64,000 nt of DNA from Mortierella sp. BCC40632 (Eukaryota > Mortierellomycota > Mortierellomycetes > Mortierellales > Mortierellaceae). The stretch's first letter is position 1, and every line of letters begins with the position of its first letter. Made by a program: the position numbers and the translations under genes. The notes beneath the pieces were generated by a model. That model was not told the origin of the DNA and did not search any database. It saw only the letters and a program-made list of their open reading frames with translations. Below are positions 3,560-63,699 of this stretch, piece after piece. The stretch spans positions 1,341,501 through 1,405,500 of the forward strand of contig WAEK01000014.1 of the NCBI GenBank assembly GCA_011634665.1, read 5' to 3'.

Positions 3560-6500
3560 GGAAGTGACGACGAAGAGGGCGGAGAGGGCGATGAGACCGA
3601 CCAAACAACCAAAGGAGATCTTCGAACGTGCCCAGCAATATTAAGACAACCTCTCCGTATCGATATCCCAACACTAAGGATGAGGACCGTGTTCTCGACA
3701 TCCTCGAGACCTATCAGAGAGACATGACTGATCTCATTGCAGAATTGTCCATGCTGACTAGGAAAGCTGTCCATGTGGTAGGTTAAAAGGAAACAGCTCC
3801 AGCCTTTTTTTTTTTTTTTTTTTTATGCTAAAGCACTAAACAGTTATTTGATGGGTTGCATTTGAAAATGGTGGATTGAAAGTGGGTGCATTTACAACAA
3901 TATCTCAGATCTTAGATCAGGAGCCTCCATCGCGCCCTTTAACACGACCATTCTCCTTCTTTCTGAGTTTGTGATACGAGACTAGACAGTCAATCCGATC
4001 GTCCAAGTAGCTCCACTCCCATCCAAACTGCAAGTCTACCTTGAACGACAGAAGGATGACATAACCGGTCTACTGTCCAGCCAACACCTTTTGTACATGT
4101 ACTCCCACATAATGTCATTCCAACGTGAAATGAGCAGCAAGCAATCTATTTGAGATGCCTTGGAGGCAACAATCAGGCGAGAATCCAATGTAGACAGCGG
4201 CTTTTCGCCTCCTGAAGATTCAACAATAATCACAATGCCCATCACTCAGCTTGCAACGGAGGGATCGATTTATGACAAAATGCGGGAATACCTACTGCGG
4301 ATCCTTTTGCAGATTCATCTGGCTCCAAAGTGCTAAAGGGGTTTCAAGGAGCGCAAGAAGGCAATATCGCAAGAGAAGGAGCAACCTGCACAAGAAAAGC
4401 AGGAAAATTTAATAACTAGAAAGATGTGGCGGCGGAGGGTCGTCAGGCTGTGCCAGGATTTGGAACGGTCATGCCCAAAAGATCCAACAAAGGAGGCAAA
4501 TCTTTCAAATCTTATTGCCCTACAAGCATGTGAACCAACACCACAGGACAGGATGCTAACCGGATTGGCACTCTCCAGGAGCGCTTATGCAGAGGCAGAC
4601 ACGGCCCAGGGATTGACAGAGACTTTCAAGGAGACATCAGAGGGAGAACCAGTACAAGATCAGTTGAATGCTGATCTAAGGGACATGAGTCTGCGGGATC
4701 TTGAAGACGCAGATCTAGAAGACCTGGAGCTCAACGACATGGTTCAAGAGAGTTTGAAGGGAGAACAAACAAAAGAGCCTTCCAACTTTCCAAGGTAGTT
4801 CTAAAGTTATTCCAGACTATCATCAAGGTGCTGCTCGAGTCTCCTAATATTCAGCCGTGGCAAAGAGTTGACCGTCAACATGTGAGAAACAACGCCTTTG
4901 TCGGTACCATATTCACGGATGAACAGTGTGATGTGGTGGCGACGATAGCAAATATATTGGATCCCTATGTTCCCAAACGACGACTAAACCCCGGATCATC
5001 TGGCGCAAAGACCTTTGCGTCGCTGGCCCATATCGCAATGACGGCCCCATTGGTGATCATAGCCACTGCAGTTCTTAGGGCGACAGGATACCTCAAGTTT
5101 ACACGGTCAATTGCGCCCGAGGTCTCCCCATCTTCGACATGAGCCCTCCTTTTGAATGCCAGGGGGATCTTTGATGCGCTCTGTTCCAGTGGACTGAACC
5201 ACCTTGATATCCAGGATTCAAACAAAAGGCACCTCACGTAAGGAAACATCGTCCCAAAGCACAAACGAGCAGTGTTTGCGGCCTTTTTTAACCTTGACAA
5301 GACCGAGCAGCTGAGTCGGTCTCATGGACTCAATTTTGCCGATTTCGTCACTTTTGTGGACTAGTACACAGTTCAAGTGATGGGTGAGGTAATCCACAAG
5401 AGCTAGAACGGAAGAATGGCCCTGTTATCAACCGGTTTGAGGAGCAGAGAAAGACTCGGTCAAACTGAGGGGGGGGGGGGCAATGAATTGAACCAAGGAG
5501 TATCAATACCAAGGATTGAACGAGCAACAAAGAGAGAGTCGACTCGACCAAGTGAATGCAGCCTACACCAAGACAGAGAAAGAGCTGGGGCCTCTCCAAA
5601 GCGAGCTCAGAGAGAAGGAAGGAGCACACTCAAAGGTGAGCAGCTATCATGGACAATTGTGCAAGACAAGAAGCATGGTAGCAGTTTCAGGGCAAGCCGA
5701 AAATCTAAAAGAGTCGTATAGGGTTCTCCAAGAAGCATAAAAAGGAATCAGGGAGATTCGAGGAAAGTTGGCCCACTTACGAAGAACTTTCGAGGACTCC
5801 GGCAAGAACGATACTACTGGAACAACATGCAAAGGGCAGCAAGAGGAAAAGAGGCGGCTTGGCGCACAAAGCATGTAGAAAAGACAGTTGTTGCGTCTTC
5901 CAATTATACGGTTGAAGATGCAACCGAGTGATTGGATGTTTCTCAGGTATCAAAGGACAGCATTGTCTTAGCCGGGACAGATCCTAGAGTAGTCTAGATG
6001 AGCGTGACATGTCCGATAACGATCCAAGGGGTTGTAACGCATGTGAACCGATTTCATTTGCTCCAAGGTAAAGTTATGGGTCCCAGTGTGGATTCGATCA
6101 GACTATGGACAGAGTGAGCTGTGTAACTGAAATGAGCCTTTTATTTTTCTTATTATTTGTCTAACAGAGAAGGCGGGTGCTTCAATGGAGGCTAGTAGTT
6201 CAAAGGAGCAAAGTGGCGTCTCCAATCCAAAGTCGCGATCATCATCAGAGGTCCCCAAGGCGTACACGATTACAGCAGGGCAATTCAATGAGGCGCCAGG
6301 AACAAGGGGGAAAAAAGTTAGGTATACAGGCAGAGACTGATAGGGGAATACCTTTCTTTAGATAGATGGTGCAAGGACTGTCAACGGTACCATGTAGCCA
6401 ACTGCACTGGTAAGAGATATTAACATCCATCCCATTGCCCCAAAGACCAACTAGCGAAAAAGATACCGATACTTTTGTATGGGGTGGTAGGAACAGGAAT

Positions 6501-6954
6501 AGGAAGTCGAATTGGAGGCCATGCAAGACAGGGAGGGGAAAAGATGCGAGTAACGCATGCGATATGGAGTAGTGGGAGTGACGAGCGAGTATCGGTCATC
6601 CCAAACATGTGCAATTTGCCTCCAGCTGGTGTAGTTAGCACGGAGCCGAAGGATTGTAAGAGGAAAGATCAAGACGGTCAAGGTGCATGATGTAGTAGAG
6701 TGTGTGAACGAGGAGTGCGAGTCGTTCAAGGCACACAGGACGATCAAGGGACGGGATGCGAACGCAGCGGTGTGCAGTGCGATCGCGCGAGCATCACAGC
6801 TTTTATCACCAAACAGACAACCCCTGAGTCCGTTCAGCATTCTCAACACCAGTCAATTGAACTGGAGTCAGAAATCAAGCCTTCAACACCCAAAACCTCT
6901 GGAGGATATAATGAAGGCTCTCGTGGGGACCACGGGCAGATACTACTAGTTTTA
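3560..6954 (+). pseudogene. Fanzor (TnpB-like nuclease) copy A, broken
   Basis: A degenerate plus-strand relative of the gene at 14120-16211. Pieces in order: an N-terminal part (about 3650-3775, then 4040-4800); a block with ANILDPYVPKRR, IAMTAPLVII and LRATGYLKFTR (about 4955-5140); VFAAFFNLDK and SHGLNFADFVTFVD (5275-5365); a coiled-coil region (5516-5740); RuvC-I AGTDPRVV (5970-5993), followed by a stop; a WCKDCQRYHVANC zinc-knuckle-like motif (about 6366-6410); SEYRSSQTCAIC (6585-6622); and the second half of the zinc ribbon plus RuvC-III, CVNEECESFKAHRTIKGRDA (about 6700-6760). Stops and frameshifts break it repeatedly, and the first glycine after RuvC-I DP is Arg. Intron signals match copy B (GTAAAG at about 6067, CTAACAG at about 6168). 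Fanzors are eukaryotic TnpB homologues guided by an RNA. This copy is almost certainly inactive, but it preserves an N-terminal region absent from copy B. Confidence 0.75.
6846..6954 (+). ncRNA. Candidate Fanzor omega-RNA scaffold, copy A
   Basis: Downstream of the zinc ribbon/RuvC-III of copy A, 109 nt align with 14014-14119 (minus) downstream of copy B, while flanking DNA does not. Two hairpins are kept. One is CCAGT-loop-ACTGG at 6849-6865, with a different loop sequence from copy B. The other is CTCGTG-GGGAC-CACGGG at 6920-6936. Both copies end in CTAGTTTTA (6946-6954), after which similarity stops. In TnpB/Fanzor systems the guide RNA scaffold spans the 3' end of the gene and element, with the guide just beyond. 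That would place a guide at about 6955-6974. The RNA function is inference; the conservation is seen. Confidence 0.45.
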
Positions 6955-8980
6955 CTTCAGAGTCCCCGCAGCCACCCGACAGTAACAGAATACTCCGTGG
7001 TCTTTGTCGACAGGAAGGCTACTGGAGCGCCTATTCCTGTCCTGGCATTCTTGACAGTGAGTGCGAATAAATTGGTTTTTTGCCTATGGATGCTCAAGCT
7101 CATCTATCCACCACATGATAAGAAAGTAAGGTCGTTTTCCTTCCTCATTTTGTTAGTCATGATGGAGTCATCACGAGAGAGGCAGCCCTTCTCCCGCGAG
7201 ACCTGCATAAACTTGTCATGCTCCATTGTAGGCTGGTTTATCACTATAGAAATTGTTGTCCCCCAGAATAAGCTTCTTGGTTATAAGAGAGCTACTGATT
7301 GTTGACGAGATCTCATACCATTACATGATTCACATCTGGCCTGCCCTATCAAGTCCAGGAATCTTTTAAGAACTGACTTGGATCCTGGCATGGTATCCTA
7401 TCTTCATACTTTGTCCTCCAACTCTTCTATCCACTATTTTTTTTTTTTTTTCCTGAAGATGCGCTTTAAAATTTTTTGTAATACAGAGTCAACACTACTG
7501 ATAGGAGTACAAGCGTTGGCAAGGTTGATATCTAGCGTCCAGATCCGCGCCTTAGGTGTCATCTCCCCACTACATCTAGGTTGAGGCTCGTCATTGAAAG
7601 AGCGGGCGAAAGAGCAGAGAAGAGATTGTAGGTGAGTGAGTAAAAGTACCAGCTTCCGCAGACTGTGAATGACAAGCATTTCAATATCCTTCTCATTGCG
7701 TGCTGGAGTAAATGGTGCAGCCTTGGCGTCCTGCCTCGACCATGGGAACGACGCGATGCGAGGGCAAACTTGGACGTAGGAGTCACATGGAGCATGGAGT
7801 CCTTCGTCATGGACCCATGCAAGTGTGCTAACAGCATAAACAGTGCGTGAGCCAAAAGAGATCCGATGCTTCCTAGCTCTCCTTAGCCAAGGTGAAAGAA
7901 GAGATGTATAAAATGATTAAGAAATCTTCTTGCAGATTCATCAGGAATAAGTCATGAGTGGCATGATTCTAGAGAGATGTCATGGCACTCATGCGAGCAC
8001 ATGCCATGAAAGCTCTTCTAAAGACCACTATTGTCGCAGCCACTCCTCGCTCAGTAGAGGCTGGAAGTAAATCCGTCCAACAAAAGGAGCGTGCTGCTTG
8101 TGAGAAAGTGGTGATTACCTTGATTACATTGGTTACGCTGATGGCAAACGCGAGCAGCCATCGGAGGTGAGACCTGAGTGATTAAGGGAAGTCAGACGGT
8201 GCCTGCAAACAGTTTTGAGGGATGAGGAATTGATCAGACGTGAACTGGAGAGTAAATACGTCCCAATCGCAATGACAGGACGCTTTGCATGCGCTACAAA
8301 CTGAATAGAGCTCATTACTTTCCAGGCTAGGAAGAGCAGTGTTAGTAGGACAACTGCGAACCCCAAACTCGCGTCAGGTCGTGGCATATTGTGTGTGAGT
8401 GGGCTTGAGAGTGCATGAGGTACAGGTTGAGACAAACAAGGATGAAAAGAATGTGATAAAAGGAAGAGTAAAAGATAAGAAACATGAAAGGGTGATCGTG
8501 ATTTGTATAGGAAAGTAATCTACTAGTAGAGTGATTGAAGAGAGAAATGGGAGCGATTGATGGAGTAGAGATCGATCGATGGAACGAGTGTTTGATCGAG
8601 GAAAGAAAGAGCAACTGATAGTTTGTAAGCCTTCCAAATCTTTAGAAATGTGACAGGCACCTCTCGCCACCATCGCCTCTACTGTTCCATGGTTGCTGTG
8701 TAAATCCCAGTCCTGAAGATGGCGCAATAATGGGGGTAGAGAGATGTTGGGAAGAGGAGGACAGGGAAGGCTAAGATGATGATTAAGTTGTGTAGAAGAA
8801 GGGAAGAGAGGAGAGGAGAGGGAAGTTCCAGTAGACAATACTCGCTCACATAGACCCGCTCACCAAGTTAGGGAAGACCCCTTTGGATTTTCTTCTCTAT
8901 TTCTCTTCAGACTCGAGACGTAGTAAGAGACTATCGCAGAATATTTCTAACAAGGGTGTTTTTCTAACAAGTTTAAAACA
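6955..8980. other. No gene recognised; low-complexity tracts
   Basis: Two kilobases with no convincing gene. There is a poly-T at about 7438-7452, and a polypurine/polypyrimidine-rich stretch at about 8440-8840 that gives long but low-complexity Ser/Leu/Phe-rich frames on the minus strand. I judge these chance frames. The lectin-like gene's 3' flank lies at the right end. Confidence 0.4.
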
Positions 8981-13356: not shown

Positions 13357-14013
13357 CCTTTTCAAATAAGGTTCCGGCTATGTGATGCTGTCTGGGATAA
13401 TCCCGATTGGTCAGTGAGAGTCTTTGTGGGAAAGAACATTTGTTTTCCACAACATCCAGCACACTAGTCAGGGCCGACATCCAAAAACCAAATGGGCTTG
13501 TGTGGGAAGAAACAATGTGGCATTGTTGGCTTGTACAACATTGAAAGTGAGGGGACTGACGAATGTGCTCTCAATGTTGATGCCAAGATTTCAGCTCTCC
13601 TATGTACGTACGTGAGTGCGAAAAATGCTTACTGGAATTGGTAGGGACCTTCTGTTTTGAGAACGTGAAGGCGACACTCTTTTTCGTTTTGTACACAGTA
13701 AGGAAAAAGTAGAAAGATCATTGGTCGCTGCTTTATTGTTTGGCGGCTTACAACTGCGTGTGCCCAAAGCAGGATACCTAAGCGAGACAAAAGTGCATAC
13801 ATCAACGGCCAGTTGGCGTAAATCAAGAATGATAAGGAAAATCTAGGCACTGCAAACTAGACTAATCCCGCTCTTCTTGGCAACTTATTTCCACGCACTC
13901 AGTGGTTCTTTTTCACCTGCCTGACTAAACACAGCGGCCACAAGAACGGCAGGACTTGAGGAGAGCGATCACCTGTTACGCCATTCTTCAATGACTTATA
14001 TACCTCTTTAACT
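13357..14013. other. Intergenic between S9 gene and Fanzor copy B
   Basis: About 650 bp with short frames only. If the Fanzor RNA model holds, the bases just left of 14014 (about 13994-14013, minus strand) would be the native guide of copy B. Nothing else is recognised. Confidence 0.35.
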
Positions 14014-14119
14014 TAAAACTAGCAGCCTTAGCCCGTGGTCCCACGGGTGTTCTCATCGCATCCGGTTGGTGAAGCCTTGGATGTTGAGAACCTAGTTGTC
14101 CCAGTTTGTAGACTGGTGT
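14014..14119 (-). ncRNA. Candidate Fanzor omega-RNA scaffold, copy B
   Basis: The 106 nt between the stop codon of copy B and the point where similarity to copy A ends. Hairpin 1, CCAGT-CTACAA-ACTGG (14101-14116), begins 4 nt after the stop. Hairpin 2, CCCGTG-GGAC-CACGGG (14032-14047), is perfect here and carries a G-T wobble in copy A. The end is CTAGTTTTA (14014-14022). Conserved stems with changed loops argue for RNA structure. Known Fanzor/TnpB guide RNAs sit at this place. The function itself is inferred. Confidence 0.45.
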
Positions 14120-16211
14120 TCATATGAACAAATCGACGGCTAAATGGATCCATTGTATGCCGATCTGGGGAAAGCAGTAGAGAGGCTCAGCGAGAGCAAT
14201 GCACATTGCCGCATTTTGGTCACGACCTTTGATTGTGTTGTGCAACTTGTACGATTCGCATGCTTGGTTGGTGCATTCAACTGCTCCGTGGACTTTGATC
14301 ATCTTGACCTTGCCTTTCACGATCCTCCTTGAGCGCGCTAACTGCACTTCCTTGAAGCAAAAAGGGCACGTCTGGGAACTGCGATAATCATCCTGAACTC
14401 CCACTACTCCATGTCGCATATGTAAATTCCGTATTTTTTTGCCACCTCGTCGAGAGTGACCCTTGGTGCGGCTGCCAACGCCCGTGCCTGCATTTCCATA
14501 CAGAAAAACTGGAATGGGCTGGCTGACTTTGTCCTTTGGGCAAGCGTTCCGGTGAGCGAAGCTTTTCCCTGTACAATTAGCGACATGATAACGCTGACAC
14601 TTCCTACACCATCCATCTAAGGCAACAGGTCAGAGCCATCATCATACAGTCGACTCAACGCGGCAATAGACAATCACTTTTTCCACTTACAAGATGATTT
14701 GGGCTCAACGGCTACATCCTGTGTGCTTTCCGTCGTTTCTTCTGCAACTAGTGTTTCCTTTGGTGCTCTTTCACTGACTGAACGGGCGTGCCGCTGAACA
14801 TGTCTTTTTTCTTCTGCAGCCAACTTGGCCCATACTCTTTTCGTGCGTAAGCGTTGGTAACGGAGTTCTTTGCATCGAGTCTTAGAAGACTCAAATGAGC
14901 ATAGAACCTTCCTGGCAGCTCGTTGCACCTTGGAAGCAGCGTCAATTTCTTCCATCGACTGTGTCAGCTTAAGACTGCCCTGTTGCGTGATGTCTTCAAG
15001 TGCATCCCTGACATCTTGGTTCGATTTTTGTTTTAGTCTGCAGTCTCTTTTGCTTGCAATCTTTTTTGTTCCTGAAAGGTTATCAATTTGAGCCGCTGTG
15101 ATCGAGTACGCCTCGGGTAGCTGTACAATGCTAGGCGCTCCCTGATCTGGAGCCTGCTCGGGGTTTGCTTCAGCTGTTAAATGAGACAACGGTATGGTGG
15201 ATGTAAGTGCTTTAATACCGCTGGCCATGGATACCTCTTTCGTGCGCACTTCAATTACTTACACTGGAGTAGGTGAAATCGGTTGCTGTGCGCCTCTATC
15301 TCCTGGAGGGTTTCTGGACATGTCACGCTCATCTTTACAACGCCAGGATCTGTCCCAGCAAAGACGATACCATCTCTGGGTAGACCAGAAATATCAAGTC
15401 GTTCAGTCGAATCCTCGACAGTGTAGTTCGAGATCGTAGGTCTCGTCATCTCCATCTGCTTTGGATTGTCTCGTTCTCTGGTGCCATCAGCTCTTGAGGC
15501 TCTGAGCATGTTATTCCAGTAGTACCTTTCCTGACGCATCCGTCTGAGATTAGCCCTCAATGGCACAACTTTCTCTCTCACTGCTCGGACGTCTCTTCGT
15601 GCTCCTTGAAGAATCTGGTATGATTGTTTCCGGTTTGTTACTTGACCTAAAACTCTCGTTGCGTTCCTCGACTTAGTGACTTGACGATGAGTACTGCTCG
15701 CATTGAATTGAGCGTTCTCTTTCTCCGTGAGTTCGCTTTGTAGGGGCCTGAGTTCGCTTTCGGATCTGGTGATGGCTTCGTTCACTTCATGAAGTTTATG
15801 GGTGATCTCTTCATGATCGAATCCATGGTTGAGTGCCTCTTCACTCCAGTTAATCGATATTCCTTTACCCGAGCGAGTTTTCTTGCGCTCTTCAAGTTGA
15901 CTGGTGAGCGGTCGACTCCCTCCGCTTGGTCCCGGGAGGAGAGCCTCGCCAGTTATGTGAACTGTGTATCTGTCCACAAAAGTAATAAAGTCGCCAAACT
16001 TGAGTCCATATGAACAAGTAGAGTGCCCGTGGCTTCGCCACTGGCACTCAACCCTCGCCTTTGGTAGTCTTTCCTTCTTTCCTTTTCTTTTTTTTTTAGC
16101 TGCAAGAGTGATGTGAATGGGCTTACCGCGAGGAAACGCCTCGATAGGGACGATCGTGGTAATCGAAGGTGAAGAGCAAAGGGAAAATGTGAGTCGGTGA
16201 GAAAAAGACAT
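14120..16211 (-). CDS. Fanzor RNA-guided nuclease, copy B
   Basis: A three-exon gene: 16211-15263, 15173-14691, 14616-14120; both introns are GT-AG, phase 1. The product is 642 residues, within the range usual for Fanzors. Residues about 66-90 (YGLKFGDFITFVDRYTVHI) start the region shared with copy A. About 130-240 is a coiled coil. RuvC-I is AGTDPGVVK with Asp288. About 380-470 is a charged helical insert absent from copy A. A CX2C-H-C knuckle lies at 481-492 (WCRKCQRYHVANC). LYGNAGTGVGSR (516-527) sits at the RuvC-II position. DDYRSSQTCPFC opens the zinc ribbon (Cys561, 564, 592, 597). RuvC-III is GRDQNAA with Asp610. The position that is Glu in copy A (SEYRSS) is Asp554 here. The first 65 residues do not match copy A and abut repeat R, so the true N-terminus may be lost or replaced. 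Fanzors use a 3' RNA to cut DNA and are carried by transposons. Probably expressed-like, activity unknown. Confidence 0.75.
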
Positions 16212-16557: not shown

Positions 16558-16872
16558 GGGAACCAAGACGACAAAGGAAGTCTTGGCTTCATTATCCGAG
16601 ACTGCGACCCTATACTGTGTAATCCTTCTTTCTTTTTAATTCCACTCGAGATACAAATAAAATAAAAGAAAATCTAGCTAGAAATACCTCACTTGGCTAT
16701 CTCTGGACTCTTCATCTTTCTTTCGCGACTTCATAATACTAAGGCAAAAGGGTGGAGAGGGTGGGACAGTATAGGGTCGCAGTCTCGGATAATGAAGCCA
16801 AGACTTCCTTTGTCGTCTTGGTTCCCCATTATCCTTCATAGGGACTGCGACCCTATACTGTGGCTTCAGAGA

Positions 16873-18137
16873 CTAGCCAAGGACAACTTTGGTGAAATTT
16901 GAGTTCGTCTTGCTGGAAAGACGATAAAATTTCGCAAACATAGAAGACGACGACCAATTGCCCTGAGCAATGATGTCGTCAATGCTGACTCCTCTCTTCG
17001 CGGCTTGCGTGGACCCCGCGGCTCTTGCTTTGGGTGTGATTGCGCCTGGAGGGAGTTGTAGTCTTGACATGACGGCCTTGATGTGTTTACTGATTCGTTG
17101 GGCAGAAATACAGAGCTCATGATGCTTGACGTGTCGGACCAAAGGGTTGTATGAGAGCGATGGCTGGGTCGGGTGTGGTACTACAAGACGGTCCTTAGCG
17201 AACCGGGCGACATAAGTCTTGAATGTTTCCACTGGGCACAAGGCTGGGTCCGATGGGCAGTGCGTTGAGGATGACAAACTTGTTCTTGTGGATACCGTTG
17301 TTCTTCTTTTGGTCGGAGGATGAGGAGACGTATGAGTGTCTTTTCGACTTGGCATCCATCCAGATCAATACGTTCGATGTCGCTTGGGCGAAGGAATGCG
17401 CACATGCCTATTGACCAACATAGCTTCTGTGTGAGAAGTTCGGCTGATACTCGACTGTTTGGTGGAAGCGAACGGAAGTAATCTAATATCGGGGATATGT
17501 TCAGATCCATCTCTTTGTTCGAGTCGGTCTCGTTGGCTCGTAAGACACGGAAAAAACTGGAGAAGTAGCTGTCTTGTTGGAAAGGCAGAGCATCTTCGAA
17601 AAGACCTGTGAGCTGTGCACGATAGGTAGAAATTGTCGATGCTTTCCATCGCTTATGAGTATGTCCCCAGGCTAGGAAGTTTAGGACGTTGGCTGGTTCG
17701 GGGATTGTTGGATCCAGTTCTCTTTCCTTGCACCATTTTATGAAAGCTCTTTGCGTGTGACCGTAACGTTTTCGCTTCAATTTTTCTGTTTCTGCATCCC
17801 TGATGATGTTGACCACCGACTCATCGTATCCTTTGCTCATCATCGTTCTACGGCGCTTATGTTCCAAGCTAGCAATGACCAGTGCGGGTTCTTCCTCATG
17901 ATCCCTGGGTCTTTTTTTCTGGAGGCGGTTAGAACGGCGGATCGTGGTACTGGGGTTGGGGATTCCTGAGTCATCTTCGTCACCACTGGATACCATATCG
18001 CGCTCTCCCAATTCGGAGTGATCAACGTTGCTGTCAGTTTCTCCTCCTGGATTCTCTGCAGGGTCTGCGGGATTAAATTCCATGGTGGGCATATGTAAAA
18101 AGGCGGCCCAGTCCTTTCCAAGAATGTTGAAGTGCAT
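16873..18137 (-). CDS. DIRS-1 tyrosine recombinase (frames shifted)
   Basis: The recombinase joins the cDNA circle into the genome. Two overlapping frames cover it. The upstream one (18137-17181) holds the SAM-like N-terminal domain (FIKWCKERELDPTIPEPANV, STISTYRAQLTGLF) and the first catalytic Arg region FLRPSDIERIDL. The downstream one (17355-16873) has KARAAGSTQAAKRGVSIDDI and IAQGNWSSSSMFAKFYRL, with the conserved Arg and the nucleophile Tyr in FYRL. A frameshift near 17290-17330 separates them and may be decay or assembly error. It lies at the 3' end, just before the internal complementary region, as in other DIRS elements. Confidence 0.75.
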
Positions 18138-21760: not shown

Positions 21761-23706
21761 TTTTTTTTTTTGCCTGCTTTACACAGTGAGATTTCGGCCA
21801 CTAGCTCTAAGCCTAACCAAACAAACACTACAAAGAGAAGCTCTATCTTGTGTCTGCCAATCTGCCACTGTTTACACGTTCTCCCCTCTAGAAACCCCAA
21901 CGGACAACCCCTCCCATCTTCTCCATGAAAGAGGCTGTAGTCTCCCCAGGAGACTCATCCGGAGAGCTGCATCTCCCTCCCTCCTGCTTCGTTTCCGTGC
22001 CTGGACAGCGGTCATGGACGTGCTTTGAAGTCGTTCGCCACAGTCACAGAGGTCCATCAAACCATCCGTGTTAAAGCCACCTTTGTACCATCTTGACCAT
22101 TCCTCTTTTTCTTCGGCTTCTTCTGGTCTAAATCTCATGCGCTTTTGACAAGCAGTGATTCTATTTTCCTTTTCCCATCTTGCGACCTCTTTACAGCGAG
22201 GGACCCAAATGTATTCATACGCGCGATCCGCAATGTTCTGGCACAGAGTAAGTGTTACCTTCCTTGCCACCTCCCGAGGAACGTCTGCTTCCTGACGTAT
22301 CACATCTGTCAACCACTTTGGTATGATCCCACGATAAAAGTCTTCAACAGTCCAGCAATCTCTATTGACCCTGTACCCACGTTCCCTGTCTGGTGCATCA
22401 TCGTCTGTGAGGGTTTCCGTTAGTCCCACTAGCTTCTCCATCATCGTGGTCCGCAACGATGTGAACTCTTTCCAAACAGCTGTTTCTCGCTCCGGGTACT
22501 TGTCATTGAACTTCCTGGTCACCGAGAGTCCGACAGTATTTACCGAAGCTAGAACTTCCTGCCAGATCTTCTTTCTTTCATTACGGTTTACCGGGCAACG
22601 CCAAAGATGGTCGTTATCCTCAATATCGTCGAGACATAATCTGCAGTTGTCGTCAGGATATGTGTATGGATACCTGTTGAACATTACCGACATTACTGGG
22701 AGTGAGTCATGAAGCCGTTTGATATTGAACGTTCGACGCTGGCTGTTCCTAAACGAACTCATCCACGTCGCCATTGGGATGCCGTCATGAATAAGATCGT
22801 GTGTTGCCAACCAATCGATGTCGAGACGTGTGGGGCGAATTGCACGTTGAACTCTATGCGACGATAGCCAAGCAGAATGTGCTCGTCTACACGACTGCAT
22901 TCTAAGTATTTTTCGGAATTCACTGTCAACGATCTTCTCCCCAAAGTAAACCTGGAACATTATGTCAACTTGCTGTCTCATATCTAGTCGGAAAGATGGT
23001 GTATCTCTCTCCTGAGCTGCACTTGCCACCCGATCGGCAATTTCATTGCCTTGAATCCCTGAGTGACCCTTGACCCATGCCACCATGGTATGTCCGGTGT
23101 GTCTTCTAACTACAGCATGGATTATTGCCCATTCTCTGTAAAAGTTACATCTCAGTTTCTGTCGTATCGTGAGACTCTCTCTTTCCTGCACAAACGTTTG
23201 GAATTTATCGACGACCCCCTTATTGTCTAGGTACACCGTGATATCCTGCATTTGAGGCACTGAGACCAATGCACCTAGGAGTCCGTACAACTCGGCTTTA
23301 GTCGATGATGCATAGCCATCCACACGTCCCGAGATCGCTCGACGCTGCCGCTCCGGCGCACGGATACACGCAAAAGCCATCTTCACTCCATGGGAGCCTC
23401 TATCCTTTAAAGATCCGTCTGTGTATAGTTCCAATCTTGTGTCGACTGATGGTTCCTCCTTCAGTCGTCTGGCAAGATTTGCCATTTCGGTCGGCATCCA
23501 TACTCCATCAATAGACTGCATCACTTTGCAGTGTAGTGATGCGGAAACTGGATTCACTAAAACACCTCTTGCTTTGTCGTCAAGCTTGTTGATGTTGATC
23601 TGGTACGAATGTACCTCCTCTGTTGAGTCAGTAAGTTCCCGCTGTATATCTTTATACCAGTTTCGACCCACATTACCCCTTTTATCCAACTTGCGTCGGA
23701 GGGGAA
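21761..23706 (-). mobile_element. 5'-truncated LINE with 15-bp target duplication
   Basis: A non-LTR retrotransposon copy inserted in DIRS-3. GAAGACTCAAGCTTA at 21746-21760 and 23707-23721 is the target-site duplication. A poly(A) tail (T-run at 21761-21771 on the plus strand) and 5' truncation fit target-primed reverse transcription. The roughly 100-nt 3' UTR (21772-21871) closely resembles the tail of the SINE at 47706-48010. Confidence 0.85.
21872..23706 (-). CDS. LINE polyprotein C-terminus with RNase H
   Basis: An open frame of about 610 codons without stops; the start is lost by 5' truncation. The RNase H domain has LELYTDGSLKDRGSHG (first Asp), STKAELYGLLGAL (Glu), ITVYLDNKGVVDKF (second Asp) and WVKGHSGIQGNEIADRVA (His and last Asp), so all catalytic residues are present. 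A zinc-knuckle-like motif CRLC-X9-HLWRC follows, then a conserved basic C-terminal region (YIWVPRCKEVARWEK). RNase H removes RNA during target-primed synthesis. The reverse transcriptase and endonuclease are not in this copy. The intact frame suggests a fairly recent insertion. Confidence 0.85.
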
Positions 23707-23732
23707 GAAGACTCAAGCTTATTATCCGAGGG

Positions 23733-23877
23733 TAGTGTTTCTCAAAAAAAGCCCGAGCCAAAAAAGCTAGTCCCACACAATGTAAAATTTCTCGGTGAAA
23801 GCTCACCCGACTCGGCTCGAAAATTTACATTGTGTGGGACTGGCTTTTTTGGCTCGGGCTTTTTTTGAGAAACACTA
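23733..23877. mobile_element. MITE-A copy 1 (hAT-type)
   Basis: A 145-bp near-palindrome starting TAGTGTTTCTC and ending GAGAAACACTA, with a direct 8-bp duplication TCCGAGGG (23725-23732, 23878-23885). Ends of this form and 8-bp duplications define hAT elements. It has no coding capacity, and the two arms could fold into one long hairpin. It sits in the inverted repeat of DIRS-3. Confidence 0.85.
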
Positions 23878-23898: not shown

Positions 23899-25514
23899 CA
23901 GTGAGTTCAGAAATTGTCCCAATGTTTATGTCCTCATCGTCGCTAATGCTCTTACTCGTACAGGAGACGTACTCAAGACACCTCCTGAGTTAGAGTGATT
24001 TAGCATTCCATTCGCGTTTCTGGTAAGCTGCTCAGAACATTCCATTGGGCACTCATCGCTGTTTTAGACCATCTAATCCCTACTTGAGTCATTGGGACAA
24101 TTATTGAGTCTTAGTTTTTTTTTGCGATTTTTTTTCATATAACACCCTCCTTCTCGCCACCTTGAATAAGAAGTAGAATCCATCATTGTTCCTCTTAGTC
24201 GCACTGTTCACTCTCTTCCTAGTTCTTCATCATGAGACCTCACACAAGAGCCGTAACCAATAACGCACTTCGACTTCTGAAGGAGGGAAAGTCAATCCGA
24301 GAAGTTGCTTCCCAAGCCGGCATTTCCAAGTCATCGGTCCATCGTATCTCCAGTGCATTGCCCCAAGGACACAGTGTAAATAGAGCAGGTCGGCCAAGAA
24401 AAGTAGCACGTCAGGCAGCACTCTTCCTCAGATTGTTGTTTCATCGTGGTGAAATATCAACCGCCACTGAGGCTACTCTGCGGTACAACGAGGACAACGC
24501 CAACCACGTCTGTGATAATACCATCCGCCAGGCACTGAGGAATCTAGGAATGAGAGCCAAGCGATCCATTAAGAAGCCAAAGCTCTCCAAAGAAAAGAAA
24601 AAAGCGAGATTGGATTTTGCTCTGGCGCACAAAGAATTGACTGAGGCCGATTGGAAGCAGGAAATTTGGTCCGACGAGTCGAAGATCAATCGCTTGAATT
24701 CAGATGGCAAGCGCTTTGTATGGGTAGACGAAATACCTCCTCCCGAGAAACAGAAAGGGAAAATCGAGCCATCAGTAGTTCAACCTACCCTCAAATATGG
24801 TGGTGGGGCTGTAATGATTTGGAGCTGTATGACATGGAAAGGACCAGGATACCTAGCAAAGATCGACTCAACATTGGACTCAGATCTATATATTCGTATC
24901 CTTTCCGAGGAGCTTCAGCAGACTGTGGAGTGGTATGATATCGATCCACACGAATATATTTTTCAACAAGACAATGATCCCAAGCATACGGCCAAGCGAG
25001 TCAAGAGGTATCTTGCCTCTATTGGATTGTCCGTCGCACAAGGCACGTTACTTAACTGGCCATCCAACTCTCCCGACCTCAATCCCATGGAACACCTTTG
25101 GGGTCATTTAAAACGGAGGTTACGGGCGAGGGGTGACATCCCTGCAGGAACTATTGAACTCTGGAATAGAATCATAGATATCTGGGAGTATGAAACGCCA
25201 ATGGAGGTATGCCAAAATCTGATTCGGAGTATGCCTCAGAGAATGAAGGCTGTGATTGCGGCGAAAGGAGGCAATACGCGATATTGATCTTGAAATTTTC
25301 AATACGCTCAAAAATTGTCCCAATGACAAGCAGATTTGGAACTGCTACTCCTCCACAGCCTCTCAATGAATTCAGGCTAGTAACTTCAGAGTAGTAACGC
25401 AATTGACAATACTTTCCATCCTAAGAGTTATAGTTGCCTACCATCAGTAGAGACAAAGAAATAAAAATACAAATGCCAACTGTAAAAACATTGGGACAAT
25501 TTTTGAGCTCACTG
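23899..25514 (+). mobile_element. Tc1/mariner element Tc1-1
   Basis: A 1616-bp element with inverted ends CAGTGAG(C/T)TCA and a TA on each side (23897-23898, 25515-25516). It carries one intact transposase gene. Its right TA is also the left TA of Tc1-2. Inserted in DIRS-3. Confidence 0.9.
24232..25287 (+). CDS. Tc1/mariner transposase (intact, D-D39-E)
   Basis: 351 residues, normal for the family. It has an N-terminal helix-turn-helix (about 21-40, SIREVASQAGISKSSVHRI), an AT-hook-like RAGRPRK, and a DDE catalytic domain with Asp148 (WSDESKIN), Asp247 (FQQDNDPKH) and Glu287 (PDLNPMEHLW). The spacing between the last two is 39 residues, against 34 in Tc1. The extra residues lie around SVAQGTLLN. 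It ends in KGGNTRY. The enzyme cuts the element out and inserts it at TA. The frame is fully open, so this may be an active copy. Confidence 0.92.
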   Translation: MRPHTRAVTNNALRLLKEGKSIREVASQAGISKSSVHRISSALPQGHSVNRAGRPRKVARQAALFLRLLFHRGEISTATEATLRYNEDNANHVCDNTIRQALRNLGMRAKRSIKKPKLSKEKKKARLDFALAHKELTEADWKQEIWSDESKINRLNSDGKRFVWVDEIPPPEKQKGKIEPSVVQPTLKYGGGAVMIWSCMTWKGPGYLAKIDSTLDSDLYIRILSEELQQTVEWYDIDPHEYIFQQDNDPKHTAKRVKRYLASIGLSVAQGTLLNWPSNSPDLNPMEHLWGHLKRRLRARGDIPAGTIELWNRIIDIWEYETPMEVCQNLIRSMPQRMKAVIAAKGGNTRY

Positions 25515-30534: not shown

Positions 30535-33500
30535 TTAAAAGAGGTCCTTCTCCTTGAGAGTATCTCGGTAATCTTGAATAACATCCTGTGCGTTCTCGAG
30601 GTCTTCGAGCGTCTGCCAAGTGCTATCTTTTACCGGGAAACCAACCCATTTGACTAGGAATTTAATTAGACCTTCCTTTTGTCTTCTTGTGCTTGACGAT
30701 TCGCTCCACCTCATAGGGCTGTTCATAGTACTCATCGCTATCGTCAATGAGAGGTTCCTTGTCAGGCCTCAGCTCTTCATTATCCGCAAACTCGTCACTC
30801 CTACGAGTAGTAGCCCTGAGCTTGGAGACGTGGAACACAGGATGCAGTCGACTTCTAGGAGGTAACTGCAACTTGTAGTTCAAGGGACTTGGTTGAGCAA
30901 TAATTTTTGTAAGGTCCTAGGAATGGTCTCCTCAGTTTGTTGACCTTCTTTTGTCGCATTTTCCGTGGCGGTTTTGATATCGGTTGCGTCGATATAGACA
31001 AGATCGTCTATTTCAAATATGGCCTCGCGTCTGTGGGCATCGTACTGGTCAGAGTACTTTTTGTGACTGTCTTGGATAGCGTCATAAACAATTCGGAATC
31101 TCGCTTGGTGTTTCTCCATCTCTTCTTTCACATTAGGTTGTTTGACCACATGAGCTTTTTCCGTCAAGAGTGTCGCTGGTGTTAACGGTACGTGTCCATA
31201 CATCACTTCGAATGGGCTAAGTCCTGTAGCGGATGACTTGGCAGAATTATGCGCAGACTCGGCATGGATGAGGAATTCGTCCCAATCATCGTGAGCCTCA
31301 TTCGTGTATAAGCGCAGATACTGTTCCAAGGACTGGATGATTCGCTCTGCTTGTCCGTTTGATTGTTGATGTCTAGCGGTTGACATGTCTAGACTCGTTC
31401 CAAGATGCTCGAAAAGGCTCTTCCAGAATGTACTGGTGAATCTGGTGTCTCGGTCCGACACGATTGACTTGGGAACTCCATAATGTCGGAACACTTGCTG
31501 GAAAAATATGTTGGCAACATCCTTGGCGGTGCAACTGGTTTTTGTGGCGACAAACACAGCGGCTTTACTAAACCTGTCCACAAATACTACTATTGCATCA
31601 TGTCCTGCTTTCGTTTTAGGTAGATGTGTCACCAGGTCCATTGCAATGTGCGTCCAAGGTTTCTCTGGAATGGGTAATGGCTGCAATAGCCCCAGTTCTT
31701 TTGTCGTTCTGTGCTTGCTAAGTCGACACTCGTGGCACGAGCTAACATAATTTTTGACGGATTGCCACATGCCCGGCCAATAGTATCCTTCAGATAGCCG
31801 GACGTATGTCTTGTCAACACCAAGGTGTCCTGCTAACGACGAGTCATGGATTTCCTTCATGATCGTAGACTTTTCCTCTGGTAGGTTGGGTACACATAAT
31901 CGCATGTCTTTCTTAAGGTAGAGGAGGTTGTCATGGAGCGTGAACTCGTACGGGTTATTCTTTCCTTGAACTGCTCTAACTCGTTTCAACCAATCGCCAA
32001 AATCTTCATCCTCCTCGTAGGCCTCTCTGCAAGCTTCCAAGATTGTGGATCCGATTACTGGTTTTGACTCCATACTGGCTGCATCTTGGTAGTCCGGCCT
32101 TCTTGAAAGAGCATCAGGTACAACATTGAGTGGTCCTTTTTGTATCGTATCACAAAATTATACTCTGCTAGTTTTTCCATCCAGCGAATTTGGCGAGGAC
32201 TGAGCGTGTTCTTTTGTATCCAGATATTTTAGTGATTCATGATCGGTGAAAACAATAAAGGGCTCGGCTGTCGAATGCAGATATACTCGCCATTTTTGGA
32301 GTGCATGGACGGCGGCAAGTTGTTCTTTTTCATGGATTGGGTAATTAATCTCTGCAGCGGACAGTTTCCTTGATTCGAACGCGACTGGTCGACCGTTCTG
32401 CATTAACGCTGCACCAATAGCATATTTCGAGGAGTCGACATGGACTTCAACAGGGAGTTCGGGATTGAAGACAGCCAGGACTGGGGCGTTCATAATTGCC
32501 TTTTTCAATTTTTTGAACGCACGTTTTTGTTCTTTCAACCATCGGAAGGTCACATCTTTTTTCAGTAGTTCAGTGAGGGGAGCGGCAATCTTGGCGAGCT
32601 TGTGAATGAAGCGTCGGTAGTAGTTGACAAGTCCTAGAAACGATTGGATATCTAGGACACAGCGCAAGGCTGGCCACTCGGCTATTGCCTGGACTTTGGA
32701 GGGGTCGACCGATACGCCCTTGCTGGACACGATGTGCCTAGGAAGCCAACTTCGCTCTTGGCAAATTCGCACTTGGACAGCTTGGCATACAGTCGATGTT
32801 CTCGTAATTTGCGCAAGATAATTTCCAAATGAACTAAATGTTGTTCCATGTTCTTGCTGAATATCAATAGATCGTCGAGGTATATGATCACACAACCATC
32901 CAGTTCGGTTCGGAAAACTTCGTTCATTAATGTCATGAAGGTGGCAGGAGCATTGGTCAATCCGAATGGCAGCACAAGGAACTCATATAGGCCGTATCTT
33001 GTGCGAAAAGCGGTCTTGTGTACGTCGTTTTCGTGAATTCGAACTTGGTGATAACCTGTTCGTAAATCCATTTTGCTAAACACTTCTGCGCCGTTCAGTC
33101 GATCAAGCAACTCATCAATTCTTGGTAACGGATAAGTATTCCTGATTGTTTGTTTGTTCAATGCTCTGTAGTCAATGCACATTCTCAAGTCGCCTTCTTT
33201 TTTTCCGCACAAACAATACAGGAGCACCGTAAGGGGATTGACTAGGTCTAATGAACCCGTGTCGTAGCAGGTCATCAATTTGTTTTTGAGCTCGTCCATT
33301 TCGGCCAAGGAAAGTTGATAGGTAGGCCTAGAGGGCGGCGTCGATCCAGGAATCAGGTCAATGTGATGGTCTACTGACCGCTCAGGAGGTAGTTCTTTCG
33401 GGAGTTCCTCTGGAAATACATCGCTGTATTTTTCTAGGAGAACTTCTACCTCCGGTGGCTGACTTTCGCTTTTCTTGTTATCCTCCTCGTTCGATCGCAC

Positions 33501-34376
33501 AATGCACAAGTAGGCTTGGTGTTTTCCAAGGGAACGTTTGAATTGCATTGCGGACAATACTGGTTGGTGTGTCGGTCGGGTGTATCCTTGGATTACAATG
33601 TCAGGTTCGACTCGGATGACGTGGTTGGCAAGGTCTAATATTGGTTGCGGTTTACTATGTGCCAGCCAACGTTTGCCCAGGATTGCTTCGAATTTCATGT
33701 CGACAACATTGAATTGGATTACTGGGCAAAAATTGTCGGCAAGTCGGAGTCGGATGTGGCAATATTGGGTACAAAGTGTTGGTTGGCCATTGCCAAACGC
33801 AACTGTTGTTGGATTTCGCTTTTTTGACGTTGCGATATGAAGGCGCTTGACTACCTCGTAATTAATGTAACTTGCGGATGCGCCGCTATCTACCATAATG
33901 TCGATAGTATGATCCTTGAAACGACCGGCCACATACATGAGAGGTTCGTCTTCGATTTCTTCTGGTAATTCAGGGTTAACTTCCTGACTGTTGGAATCTG
34001 GACATGGACTAGCAGAAAACTTATTCTGGGGACTGGGAGTGAAGGTTGAGTCGTCTGACTCACTACTGGATTCACGGGACACGGCACTACATTCTGCACT
34101 TGCAGGGAACTCGGGGCCAAGGCTACTATTGGTATCTTGAACAGGCAGCGGCTCACGTGAACCGACGACATTTAACGGGGTTGGACTGGGAATGGCACTC
34201 GCTGAGAACCGGAAACCAACTTTGGTCTCGGAACTGGGATCAATTGTTAACCCACTTGGATCGACAATTTTAGGCTGGGAGGAGATACGAAGCTCACTTG
34301 AGCTGGAGGGACATGATTCTGATTGTTTAGAAATGTCACTCGACGTTTCTGGACAATTTGTGGGTTTAGGGAACAC
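30535..34376 (-). pseudogene. Gypsy-1 pol: protease, RT, RNase H, integrase, chromodomain
   Basis: Pieces in order. 34376-32682: protease with IDIMVDSGASASYI and FEAILGKRWLAHS, then RT with [26 protein letters not shown] and the active site IIYLDDLLIFSK. 32895-32158: RNase H with VEVHVDSSKYAIGAAL, HEKEQLAAVHAL and FTDHESLKYL. 32073-30880: integrase with an HHCC finger (HDSSLAGHLGVDK to CHECRLSKH), Asp in HIAMDLVTHLPK, Asp in IVSDRDTRF and Glu in NGQAERIIQSLE. 30883-30535: a chromodomain (KFLVKWVGFPVKDSTWQTLE). The reading frame changes between blocks at homopolymers (for example a T-run at about 33200), so as sequenced it would not make one polyprotein. The chromodomain targets integration to marked chromatin in related elements. 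Confidence 0.85.
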
Positions 34377-60523: not shown

Positions 60524-62083
60524 CCGGCGCGTGACCTCGCCGCGTCTAACAAAGAAGGGAGTGGCAGGAAAAGATGATCTTTATTGGTGGTAGGTGAAGG
60601 GACTATTTATACATGTGAGTGAGGTGGACCTTTTAAGTTATAGGGGTGGGAGTGGACATGACCTCAAAGGTTAAAGGGGTGGGTGCTGATGGTCGATACT
60701 GTGACACCTTCCCCCATTAAGTGAAGCAGGTCGTGATCCTTACAGTACTGTCTAAGGGTGTCTTCACAATGTGAAAGATTTTTGAGAGGCTCCCAGGTGG
60801 CATCTGAAGCAGCATCGTACCCGACCCATTTGACAAGAAAACTTGTCTTTTTCGTTTTGGGTGTCGTCCTGTGCGCTAAGATAGCCTCTACTTCATGTTC
60901 CTCATTACCCTCAATGATATCGGGTTCTGGAGGAGGTGAAGTCCGGCGGCCAAGCGACTCTGGAGATGGAACAAACGGTTTAAAACGGTCGACATGAAAT
61001 ACGTCATGTATTTTCAATGTAGGGGGTAGCTCGACCTTGAAGGAGACCGGGCTTCGTTGTTCGAGGAGTGTGAACGGGCCAAAGTATCGAGCCTGTAGTG
61101 ATGCAGCTGGTCGGCTAGAGTCATACGCAGTTGTGATGTTTTCCGTACTGAGCAGGACTTGGTCCCCCCACTTTGAATGAGTGTGGCCTCCGGTGAGCAT
61201 CAGCATTCTTGATTTGCTGATTCTGAGCCGAGAGAAGGCTGTCTTGTGCCAGAGATAATGAGGTCTTCTGCAAGGCAACAAATTTGTCCATGTCTGTGGG
61301 ACAAGCTTCTTCAGGGGGCCCGAGGAGGGAAGCAGGAACCCGTGGATGGAATCCATGATTGAGAAAAAATGGGGAGACTCCTGTGGATGAATTGACGGCA
61401 TTGTTGTATGCGAATTCTGCAGCAGGGAGGTATAGGTCCCAGTCATCCTGTTTGTGGTTCACTAGACTCCGAAGAACTGACTTAAGAGTTTGAATGGCTC
61501 GTTCGGATTGACCATCTGTCTGCGGATGAAATGCTGAGGACATGGCAAGCTTCGTTCCTAGTCGCTCGTGGAGGCGCTTCCAAAAGGAACTAGTGAACTT
61601 GCTATCCCGGTCGGAGACAATCGTGGAGGGCAACCCATGGAGGCGAAAGACATTTGCAAAGAAACAATTGGCAACGTCCTTTGCTGAATCTGTAGTCCGA
61701 CTAGGGGCAAAATGGACCTGTTTCGACAATTTGTCTACGAAGACAGTGATTGCATCGAATTTGCGTGCTGTTTGTGGTAGTTTTACCACGAAATCCATTG
61801 ATACTGTGTCCCAACGTTGTTCTAGAATGGCTAAAGGTTGAAGAAGTCCAGCTGGAAGGCGGCGGACTGCTTTGTTACGTTGGCAGCTCGAGCAGGATTC
61901 GACATACCGTCGGACATCATTTGACATCTTAGGCCAATAGGCAAACCGCCGTAAGGTGGCGTATGTCTTGGCAAAGCCGAAGTGGCCTGATATTGCAGCA
62001 TCATGAACCTCGTGGAGTAGGATTAAACGCAGAGTGGACGACTTCGGGACGCAGAGTAATAGGTCACCCTTGCGCTCGACATA

Positions 62084-63699
62084 AAGTGAATCCATAGATC
62101 GATCAATGATTTTTTTAGAAATGCATTCTGGCAGATTGCTCATTCGTCTATGATGCATTCCAATGGGGAACTCTCATGGGAGAATGGGTGATCCTTCAAC
62201 TTTAAACTGATTGCTCTCCATCTCCTTTAGTAGAGCTATACATCAATAGTTTACCTGATGTAGCAGAGAAGTCACATTGATCAAACGCTGGAAAAGTAGA
62301 AAGGCTGAGACATCTCTCTATTGCATGTCTTTTTTTCCCCTAACCAATCATTCACCCAGCTTGAATATTCTTCTCTCCCAGTCTTTTGAACCACAATGCA
62401 GCAGCCATTGGAGCGAACTCGAAGGCCCCCAAAGCACCTCTCTCCTGAGAAAAAGGAATCGGTCAAAGATCTGCTGATGCAAGGGAAATCAGTTAGACAA
62501 GTGGCAAGTGCCCTTGATGTCTCCATTGGGACCGCTGTCAACATTCGTAAAGGTATTCAAGAAAACGTTCCTCCATCAAAACCAGGTCCTCAATGTAAGA
62601 TTCCAGAGAGAACGATGGTCCTTGTTGCCCGCAATTTCAAAACTGGCAAAATGGAAACACTTCGTCAAGCTCAGCGGTTCATTCAGGAGCGAGATGGAGT
62701 GCATGTCCAGATTGAGACTGTGCGGACCAATCTACGTAAGAGAGGCATCAAAGCATCTGTCAAGCAGAAACGACCTGATCTCTTCCCCAATCACATTCAC
62801 GAGAGGTATGAATTTGCAAAAGCGCACAAAGACTGGACTGTCGAAGAATGGAAGAAAGTAATGTTCTCCGATGAGAGCATGAACAGCCGCGTGGGAACAT
62901 TTGGCAGACAGTTCTACTACAGCGACCTTGAACACAGGAAGCTTTCGCGTCAGCAGGTCCGTCGAACTCCACAAGGTGGCGGAGGCAAGATGATGATCTG
63001 GGGATGCATCACTTACAATTCCCCAGGCGACCTCTGCTGGATCGAAGTAGGAATGAATTCGGAAATGTACCTCCAGGTTCTCCAGGATTATGTTACCAGC
63101 TCATTCGAATGGGCCCAAGCATGGACCCAGCAGAACTCCATCTTCCAACAGGACAACTCCAAAGTGCACATGGCAAACATAGTAAAGAGATGGTTTGCAG
63201 AACAGGAGTTTAGAGTTGTGAAGTGGCCAGCGAAATCCCCGGACCTCAACATCATTGAACACGTCTGGAGTATCCTCAAGCGTCGCCTCAATCAGTACGA
63301 CAATGAGCCGAATGACTTGAATGAGCTCTGGGAACGAGTCCAAGACGAATGGGTAAAACTCTCGCCAGAGTTGATCCATAAATTGTATGAGAGCATGCCT
63401 CGGCGCATTGAGGCTGTGCTACGTAGCAAAGGAGGACACACAAAATACTGACCCTCCATGGAGAAGCAATCATCCGATGAGGATCCATGAATCCAGTGAT
63501 GGCTCAATGTGACAAGTGAAATAAAAAAAAAATACATCAAGTCTTCCCTACTGCAGGTCTGTGCAACTGAAGCAGGACATAGATAAGTGGCTGACTTATT
63601 TTCCCACGGTGGTCTCCAGTTGGGATGCATCATAGACGAATGAGCAATCTGCCAGAATGCATTTCTAAAAAAATCATTGATCGATCTATGGATTCACTT
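62084..63699 (+). mobile_element. Tc1/mariner element Tc1-3
   Basis: 1616 bp with unusually long inverted ends, about 75 bp (62084-62160 and 63623-63699, AAGTGAATCCATAGATCG), between TA 62082-62083 and TA 63700-63701. One intact transposase gene. It is inserted in Gypsy-3 pol. Confidence 0.9.
62396..63451 (+). CDS. Tc1/mariner transposase (intact, D34E)
   Basis: 351 residues. Helix-turn-helix at about 31-52 (KSVRQVASALDVSIGTAVNI), a second DNA-binding part, and a DDE domain with Asp159 (VMFSDESMN), Asp253 (FQQDNSKVH) and Glu288 (PDLNIIEHVW), spacing 34. Ends KGGHTKY. The frame is open and the element ends look intact, so it could be functional. Only distantly related to the Tc1-1 and Tc1-2/4 proteins. 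Confidence 0.93.
   Translation: MQQPLERTRRPPKHLSPEKKESVKDLLMQGKSVRQVASALDVSIGTAVNIRKGIQENVPPSKPGPQCKIPERTMVLVARNFKTGKMETLRQAQRFIQERDGVHVQIETVRTNLRKRGIKASVKQKRPDLFPNHIHERYEFAKAHKDWTVEEWKKVMFSDESMNSRVGTFGRQFYYSDLEHRKLSRQQVRRTPQGGGGKMMIWGCITYNSPGDLCWIEVGMNSEMYLQVLQDYVTSSFEWAQAWTQQNSIFQQDNSKVHMANIVKRWFAEQEFRVVKWPAKSPDLNIIEHVWSILKRRLNQYDNEPNDLNELWERVQDEWVKLSPELIHKLYESMPRRIEAVLRSKGGHTKY

Follow-up and report, generated by a model that had tools for sequence, protein, structure and literature searches.

The 3′ end of a Mortierella Fanzor element as a candidate omega-RNA scaffold within coding sequence, with a putative spliced guide RNA in related families

What is the hairpin-bearing segment found at the 3′ end of a Fanzor gene in Mortierella? 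The segment, at 14014-14119, belongs to a gene on the minus strand (copy B) of a 64-kb stretch of contig C14, hereafter the window, and was compared with the whole assembly (49.9 Mb). Among named proteins, the nearest are those of Mortierella sp. GBAus27b, Entomortierella chlamydospora and Mortierella sp. GBA43, in keeping with a Mortierella-like source. A preliminary description took it for a non-coding omega-RNA scaffold whose guide lies in the 3′ flank. Our best explanation, to which we assign a probability of roughly 0.8, is that the segment is the 3′ end of a Fanzor element, which codes for protein in the relatives of copy B and would form a three-hairpin omega-RNA scaffold with the flank as guide, copy B itself being probably dead. 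The part of this explanation that we computed consists of the hairpins with their compensatory changes, the boundary, the coding overlap and the defects of copy B. The coordinates of all features are collected in Table 1.

The segment has eight matches genome-wide, itself included, and its counterpart in copy A (6846-6954) is related to it more distantly. A genome search with the C-terminal exon of copy B gave 150 scored matches among 211 candidates, with some copies hit in two pieces. We sorted these by eye into six Fanzor families, I (with copies A and B), II, III, IV, V and VI, the fifth of which is a single copy. The identity of their last exons to family I is 58% for II, 54% for III, 50% for IV, 46% for V and 43% for VI. 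Tails, that is, the equivalents of the segment, could be parsed in 75 of 78 cases, 45 of them distinct.

The published Fanzor fingerprint consists of DPG in RuvC-I and of an alternative RuvC-II glutamate known as Ealt (PMC10711439). Copy B and L041 read GTDPG at RuvC-I, while L028 (family III) and P0001-P0004 have DYG instead and are thus exceptions to the fingerprint. The Ealt glutamate, six residues upstream of the zinc finger, is present in the families, as is a C4 zinc finger followed by RD, which copy B shares with its relatives. The best PDB match of P0001 is SpuFz1 (8gkh), with a weak E value of 0.013, and SpuFz1 is also the sole PDB match of family profile A3 at E up to 1, again weak (E = 0.028). 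L028 found no solved Fanzor in the PDB, and Pfam assigned no Fanzor family to the ten window ORFs and four Fanzor proteins or exons submitted to it. An AlphaFold2 prediction of P0001 from four sequences reached a pLDDT of 44 and is unusable as a model. We file the families as Fanzor on their motifs and the weak match to SpuFz1. P0004 is 1,080 aa long, and at full length the protein may have more than 1,000 residues. An ORF of L041 (1611-2594), upstream of the Fanzor core, resembles by eye the N-terminal part of P0004.

Table 1. Positions of features in the window
Feature	Position	Strand	Basis or remark
Copy A gene, diverged family I Fanzor	3615..6845	+	~62% identity to C4 copy
Scaffold-like tail, copy A	6846..6954	+	
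Copy A hairpin 1 arms	6849-6853/6861-6865	+	
Copy A hairpin 2 outer arms	6878-6885/6912-6919	+	
Copy A hairpin 3 arms	6920-6926/6930-6936	+	
CTAG ending the 13-nt linker, copy A	6946-6949	+	then TTTTA 6950-6954
Predicted guide region, copy A	6950..6974	+	prediction
Copy B Fanzor remnant, 5′-truncated	14120..16014	-	homology and motifs
RuvC-I Asp codon (GTDPG), copy B	15348..15350	-	
Asp codon at Ealt (alternative RuvC-II Glu) position, copy B	14387..14389	-	
RuvC-III Asp codon (RD), copy B	14220..14222	-	
Apparent stop of copy B, off relatives' frame	14120..14122	-	
Scaffold-like tail, copy B	14014..14119	-	sequence, fold, covariation
Copy B hairpin 1 arms	14116-14112/14105-14101	-	
Copy B hairpin 2 outer arms	14091-14085/14055-14049	-	
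Copy B hairpin 2 inner arms	14083-14079/14063-14059	-	
Copy B hairpin 3 arms	14047-14042/14037-14032	-	
TAA closing relatives' frame (L010, L012, L014)	14028..14030	-	
CTAG ending the 13-nt linker, copy B	14022-14019	-	then TTTTA 14018-14014
Predicted guide region, copy B	13994..14018	-	predicted from boundary

Copy B had been put forward as a candidate working system, and the motifs on which this was based (a DPG RuvC-I, a four-Cys ribbon and RD) are all present. Over a 2,009-nt alignment that starts at 16014, it is 97.7% identical to a copy on contig C4, and two introns can be placed in it by homology to L041. It is, however, 5′-truncated, since the C4 copy and another on C2 have about 3 kb more in common upstream of its limit at ~16014, and the homology of copy A likewise begins further upstream. 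The ORF at 15255-16211 therefore starts outside the element, and its first part is foreign to it, because homology to the relatives begins at ~16014 while they extend further. There is also a one-base length difference from the other family I copies near 14188, and downstream of it sits the apparent stop of copy B, which is not in the relatives' frame. At the Ealt position, all 14 other copies printed have Glu and copy B has Asp. The truncation, the frameshift and this Asp together lead us to infer that copy B makes no active nuclease, and it is probably a dead relic; that it works unchanged as an RNA-guided nuclease gene, as the readable RuvC-I, zinc ribbon and RuvC-III would allow, we find barely credible in the face of these same three defects. 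Copy A, whose identity to the C4 copy was measured over 3615-6071 and 6353-6953, has stops and frame breaks in its last exon, with stops in the C-terminal matches. A possible link of copy B to Cryptons, prompted by a sub-threshold Pfam match (integrase N-terminal) in the ORF at 17181-18137, was set aside because this ORF lies outside the 5′ limit of homology. Upstream of copy B, 16560-16620 and 16780-16861 are inverted copies of a CACAGTATAGGGTCGCAGTC-type sequence, which resemble the ends of a small DNA element.

The segment had been described as lying just after the stop, but in other copies and in copy A the reading frame passes through it, and its non-coding appearance in copy B is due to the frameshift. 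In L041, for example, the last exon reads through the tail. When six family I tails, that of copy B among them, were translated in the relatives' frame from downstream of its frameshift, four closed at the same TAA, one closed three codons later and one (L015) had an early stop within the tail. The frame of copy A is open up to the TAG (6947-6949) of the terminal CTAG, and family II frames, by reading, end in the same way. The tail in the relatives of copy B is C-terminal coding sequence, with an overlap of about 30 residues.

Does this coding sequence also fold? Both stems that had been recognized in it are real. CCAGT/ACTGG has the same letters in copies A and B, and in CCCGTG/CACGGG one G-C pair of copy B is a wobble in copy A. 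There are, however, three hairpins in all, and the middle one (14091-14049), which had been overlooked, displays the strongest covariation of the three. Between copies A and B, three of its seven outer pairs differ on both sides, yet all seven pair in both copies. Folds of single sequences give this second hairpin a one-by-three internal loop and yield three hairpins in the majority of tails from families I, II, IV and VI, and in some of family III if one mismatch is allowed. RNAalifold, applied to a MAFFT alignment of 20 tails, recovered 11 pairs (those of hairpin 1 and the outer pairs of hairpin 2), six of them changed two-sidedly; the evidence for hairpin 3 comes from the single-sequence folds because MAFFT misaligned it.

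We counted pairs in 20 tails of the six families, at 16 positions of the structure, and found 90.6% of the 320 cells paired. Two-sided changes occur in 8 of the 16 pairs, a number matched by 1 of 500 shuffles, and the covariation score of 0.318 compares with 0.177 in shuffles, none of 500 reaching it. Slid versions of the structure score 0.154 at most, a control that is partly circular since the counted structure was derived from the same sequences. One of the five covariation measures, that of further pair types, is borderline (reached by 29 of 500 shuffles). Taken singly, the tail of copy B folds better than expected (z = -3.20; 1 of 200 shuffles as good), while that of copy A is weak (z = -1.28; 23 of 200). 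The full three-hairpin shape was present in five of nine tails tried, as against none of 9,000 shuffles, and in 26 of the 45 distinct tails; in its strict form it is missing from all nine family III tails, the one of family V, 3 of 7 in family I and 6 of 23 in family II. Among 25,560 segments of 100 nt covering both strands of the 64 kb, it occurs in four places, one of which is the tail of copy B and none that of copy A. When RNAalifold was run on last exon plus tail in 15 copies of three families, the tail scored z = -1.68 versus -2.64 for a coding window, so the long alignment does not single out the tail, and an Rfam scan of the window returned no match at the gathering score.

The 3′ edge of the element is sharp, as described, in that similarity stops there, but the Helitron-like boundary is CTAG/T (between 14019 and 14018), up to 5 nt before 14014. 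CTAG followed by TYTT[AT] is the end of similarity in the seven family I copies that retain it. As all seven flanks start with TYTT[AT], the start of the guide can be placed only to within 5 nt: in copy B it would be 14018 if CTAG closes the element, or 14013 if the element includes TTTTA. The guide of copy B would thus span 14018-13999 or 14013-13994, the latter being the guide first proposed (13994-14013). Hairpin 3 is separated from the CTAG end by 13 nt in seven of eight family I rows (I_L008 being without an intact end, and I_L013, unmatched, not being counted) and in 38 of 44 family II rows, the others being at 14 nt (two) or not parsed (four). T is the first base in 25 of the 27 distinct flanks of family II, and the remaining two have an altered CTAG.

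A hairpin shortly before a CTRR 3′ end and insertion between A and T without duplication are traits of Helitrons. Families I and II have a hairpin before CTRR, and families III, IV and VI have 3′ ends other than CTAG. As for targets, all nine empty copies of one repeat that we fetched read GGAAGA^TAAAAGG, and TTA^TCA is the site at which one family II copy sits within a family I gene. These features (hairpin, 13 nt, CTAG then T, A^T targets) suggest a Helitron-like 3′ end in families I and II. Helitrons are further characterized by a TC at the 5′ end and by a Rep/helicase protein. At the other end, the 5′ ends of three family I copies did not agree when compared, and no inverted repeats were recognized in the three longest copies of this family. 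Helitron_like_N has 23 matches in the genome but none that falls in the family I copies of C4, C2 and C10, which would therefore be non-autonomous. A degenerate Helitron_like_N with stops (G000:C14:1340498-1340950) lies about 0.5 kb left of the window on the strand of copy A.

The left flank of the empty repeat has ten matches, none of them at the 40 family II tails listed, and no left junction of a filled copy was seen at this A^T repeat; since none of the ten adjoins a listed tail, insertion is not shown from both sides. A second group of flanks has six matches, five after family II tails, and the sixth, L116, was rejected as a clean empty site because it still ends in CTAG. Seven family II copies (L022, L023, L060, L064, L076, L077 and L083) have one common 3′ flank and never the left half of the repeat, which is found only at the ten empty loci (the empty copies are L104-L112); in the shared-flank copies, tail and downstream DNA were perhaps amplified together. 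L113-L115, on small contigs, are further examples of degraded tails. In four other family II copies (L017, L026, L031 and L032), upstream similarity seems to end at a poly-T just before the last exon, leaving copies of last exon plus scaffold with a precise 3′ end.

Could the tail be explained without a guide RNA? It might have been kept solely for protein coding, the hairpins having arisen by chance, and the frame is indeed open across it in most relatives read. However, the frame in which ACCAGT is read varies by family, giving NTS in I and IV, RQS in III and HQS in VI, one family I copy stops early within the tail and pairs change on both sides, all of which make a coding-only tail very improbable. 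An unlikely explanation, but one that deserves more weight, is that a Helitron-type 3′ terminus is joined to ordinary C-terminal coding sequence, so that the last hairpin serves as a signal for transposition, without any guide RNA being produced. The ends of families I and II have the expected form, and the tail does code for protein in the relatives of copy B. Yet families III, IV and VI, without CTAG ends, retain hairpins 1 and 2, which Helitron ends lack, and their hairpin 3 lies more than 70 nt from the end, where it cannot be a terminal signal. Conserved stems and boundary were both found in the other genomic copies examined, and the omega-RNA reading has come through this check. At the level of the families (hairpins, fixed distance to the end, variable flanks), a scaffold with its guide in the 3′ flank appears well supported; what has to be given up is a separate non-coding segment, the tail being C-terminal coding sequence in the relatives.

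The more distant families differ in what follows the scaffold. Families III-VI have, between scaffold and element end, a GT...AG segment of 72-111 nt that starts with GTGAGT, GTAAGT, GTAAGA or GTGAGC and ends with TAG or CAG. The end was found in 21 of 24 tails of these families (10 of III, 4 of IV, 1 of V, 6 of VI), and 19 of the 21 segments have a GTRAG donor, the other two having GTGGG. An AG acceptor is present in 20 as parsed and in the 21st if shifted by one base, and 18 contain a branch-like CTAAY. The donor is 6-10 nt past hairpin 3 in all four families and the acceptor AG 5-8 nt from the element end. With the segment removed, 13 nt (III, V) or 15 nt (IV, VI) would be left, compared with 13 nt in the intronless families, lengths that follow from the family ends as we set them and not from each copy: the end of family III may be 3 nt earlier (L029 and L093 differ there), and that of family V, known from one copy, was set by likeness to III. 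By reading, the spliced frame of III, IV and V reaches a TGA that lies at the junction or spans it.

These features incline us to the view that the omega-RNA of families III-VI is a split gene, in which a spliceosomal intron would be removed and splicing would join the host-derived guide to the scaffold. If the segment were kept, constant element sequence would stand at the guide position; if it were removed, host flank would stand there, which is why a spliced omega-RNA is predicted. The segment might instead have nothing to do with the guide, as an ordinary intron at the end of a gene or an acceptor that lets host transcripts splice the element out, and any guide RNA would then be made unspliced. 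We regard this as a possible but doubtful alternative. The acceptor, so close to the element end, could be used by a host transcript, and the genome yielded no spliced copy of III or VI: the spliced junction of family III, with up to two mismatches, had one match in the genome, not Fanzor-like on reading, and that of family VI, with up to three, had 12, namely 11 unspliced donors and one that was not Fanzor-like. On the other hand, the alternative does not account for the position of the donor shortly after hairpin 3 across four families or for the length left after removal, so near that of the intronless families, and an unspliced RNA would have constant element sequence where its guide should be. 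A single loss of the intron would fit the families, as family II is closest to family I in the last exon.

The intron of bacterial IStrons is self-splicing, and its splicing competes with the making of guide RNA; here, by contrast, splicing would be required. In IStrons, too, a TnpB-type element has an intron at its end, but it is a group I intron (PMC4227781). Guide RNAs in the Fanzor literature available to us are contiguous transcripts of scaffold plus guide (PMC10432273, PMC11423790), and in the solved Fanzor1 complexes the guide comes directly after the scaffold (PMC11423790, PMC10432273). The word "intron" does not occur in the main texts of PMC10432273, PMC10711439 and PMC11423790. By title and opening of the abstract, none of the papers listed in searches that mostly did not extend to subscription journals deals with an intron in an omega-RNA, and under the same coverage we found none on Fanzor in Mortierella.

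Among known systems, SpuFz1 of Spizellomyces punctatus is likewise a Fanzor1 in a multicopy fungal element, Spu-1 (PMC10432273). The ~75-nt scaffold of Spu-1 is at the 3′ end, and its transcript runs 14-15 nt past the element edge, this extension being the guide (PMC10432273). Spu-1 has inverted repeats and its scaffold follows the stop (PMC10432273), whereas here the candidate scaffold is within coding sequence. GtFz1 of Guillardia theta is closer in this respect, with several stem loops and a scaffold over C-terminal coding sequence (PMC10432273, PMC11423790), although the overlap is 17 residues as against ~30 here (PMC10432273). CRe-1, -2 and -3 of Chlamydomonas reinhardtii also place Fanzor1 in non-autonomous Helitrons, with many copies 5′-truncated and 3′ ends intact, but they are of the Helitron2 group, with insertion after TTTT and hairpins at both ends instead of CTAG then T and A^T, and no guide RNA is described for them there (PMC3627910). 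MCi-2 of Mucor circinelloides is another fungal Fanzor1 with constant 3′ and variable 5′ regions; it differs in its 11-12-bp duplications and in the partial Crypton transposase of one subfamily, neither of which we saw here (PMC3627910). In the reRNAs of IS607 TnpB and of insect-virus Fanzor1, a right-flanking base or duplication likewise enters the scaffold, the Fanzor1 reRNAs have a three-stem shape, and the DPG and Ealt fingerprint is shared, but an intron between scaffold and guide is not described for either in the main text (PMC10711439).

Comparison of 73 3′ flanks (59 distinct) showed that some Fanzor copies lie within another Fanzor gene of the same orientation, namely L034, L029 (III), L088/L042 (II) and L019/L020/L024/L035 (II). 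The 3′ flank is Fanzor coding sequence from base 1-3 onwards in L034, L029 and L088, and from about base 80-140 onwards in L019, L020, L024 and L035; L036 has Fanzor sequence further out and on the opposite strand. The guides of L034, L029 and L088, as predicted from their flanks, would match rival Fanzor genes. The window also holds mobile-element ORFs at 30880-34376, 61121-62158, 24232-25287, 62396-63451 and 21872-23806, with aspartic protease, reverse transcriptase, integrase, DDE transposase with a Tc3-type HTH, and RNase H domains.

We propose that one stretch of DNA would encode the C-terminal ~30 residues of the nuclease and, once transcribed, serve as omega-RNA scaffold. As the three hairpins would stop 13 nt short of the edge of the element, the host DNA just past that edge would become the guide; transcription, protein binding, use of the flank as guide and cleavage make up the inferred part of our explanation. 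In families III-VI, a splice would join the flank-derived guide to the scaffold, and in III, IV and V the same splice would place the TGA stop of the protein. In families III-VI, one transcript would then serve as both nuclease mRNA and guide RNA, and whether it yields a usable guide would depend on the spliceosome.

With many scaffold-bearing copies and an identifiable insertion dinucleotide, this genome may offer a natural experiment on guide acquisition, and guides from Fanzor copies within Fanzor genes would match rival elements. If the splicing reading is true, the guide of a eukaryotic RNA-guided nuclease would depend on nuclear splicing, and splicing would be a control point that bacterial TnpB lacks.
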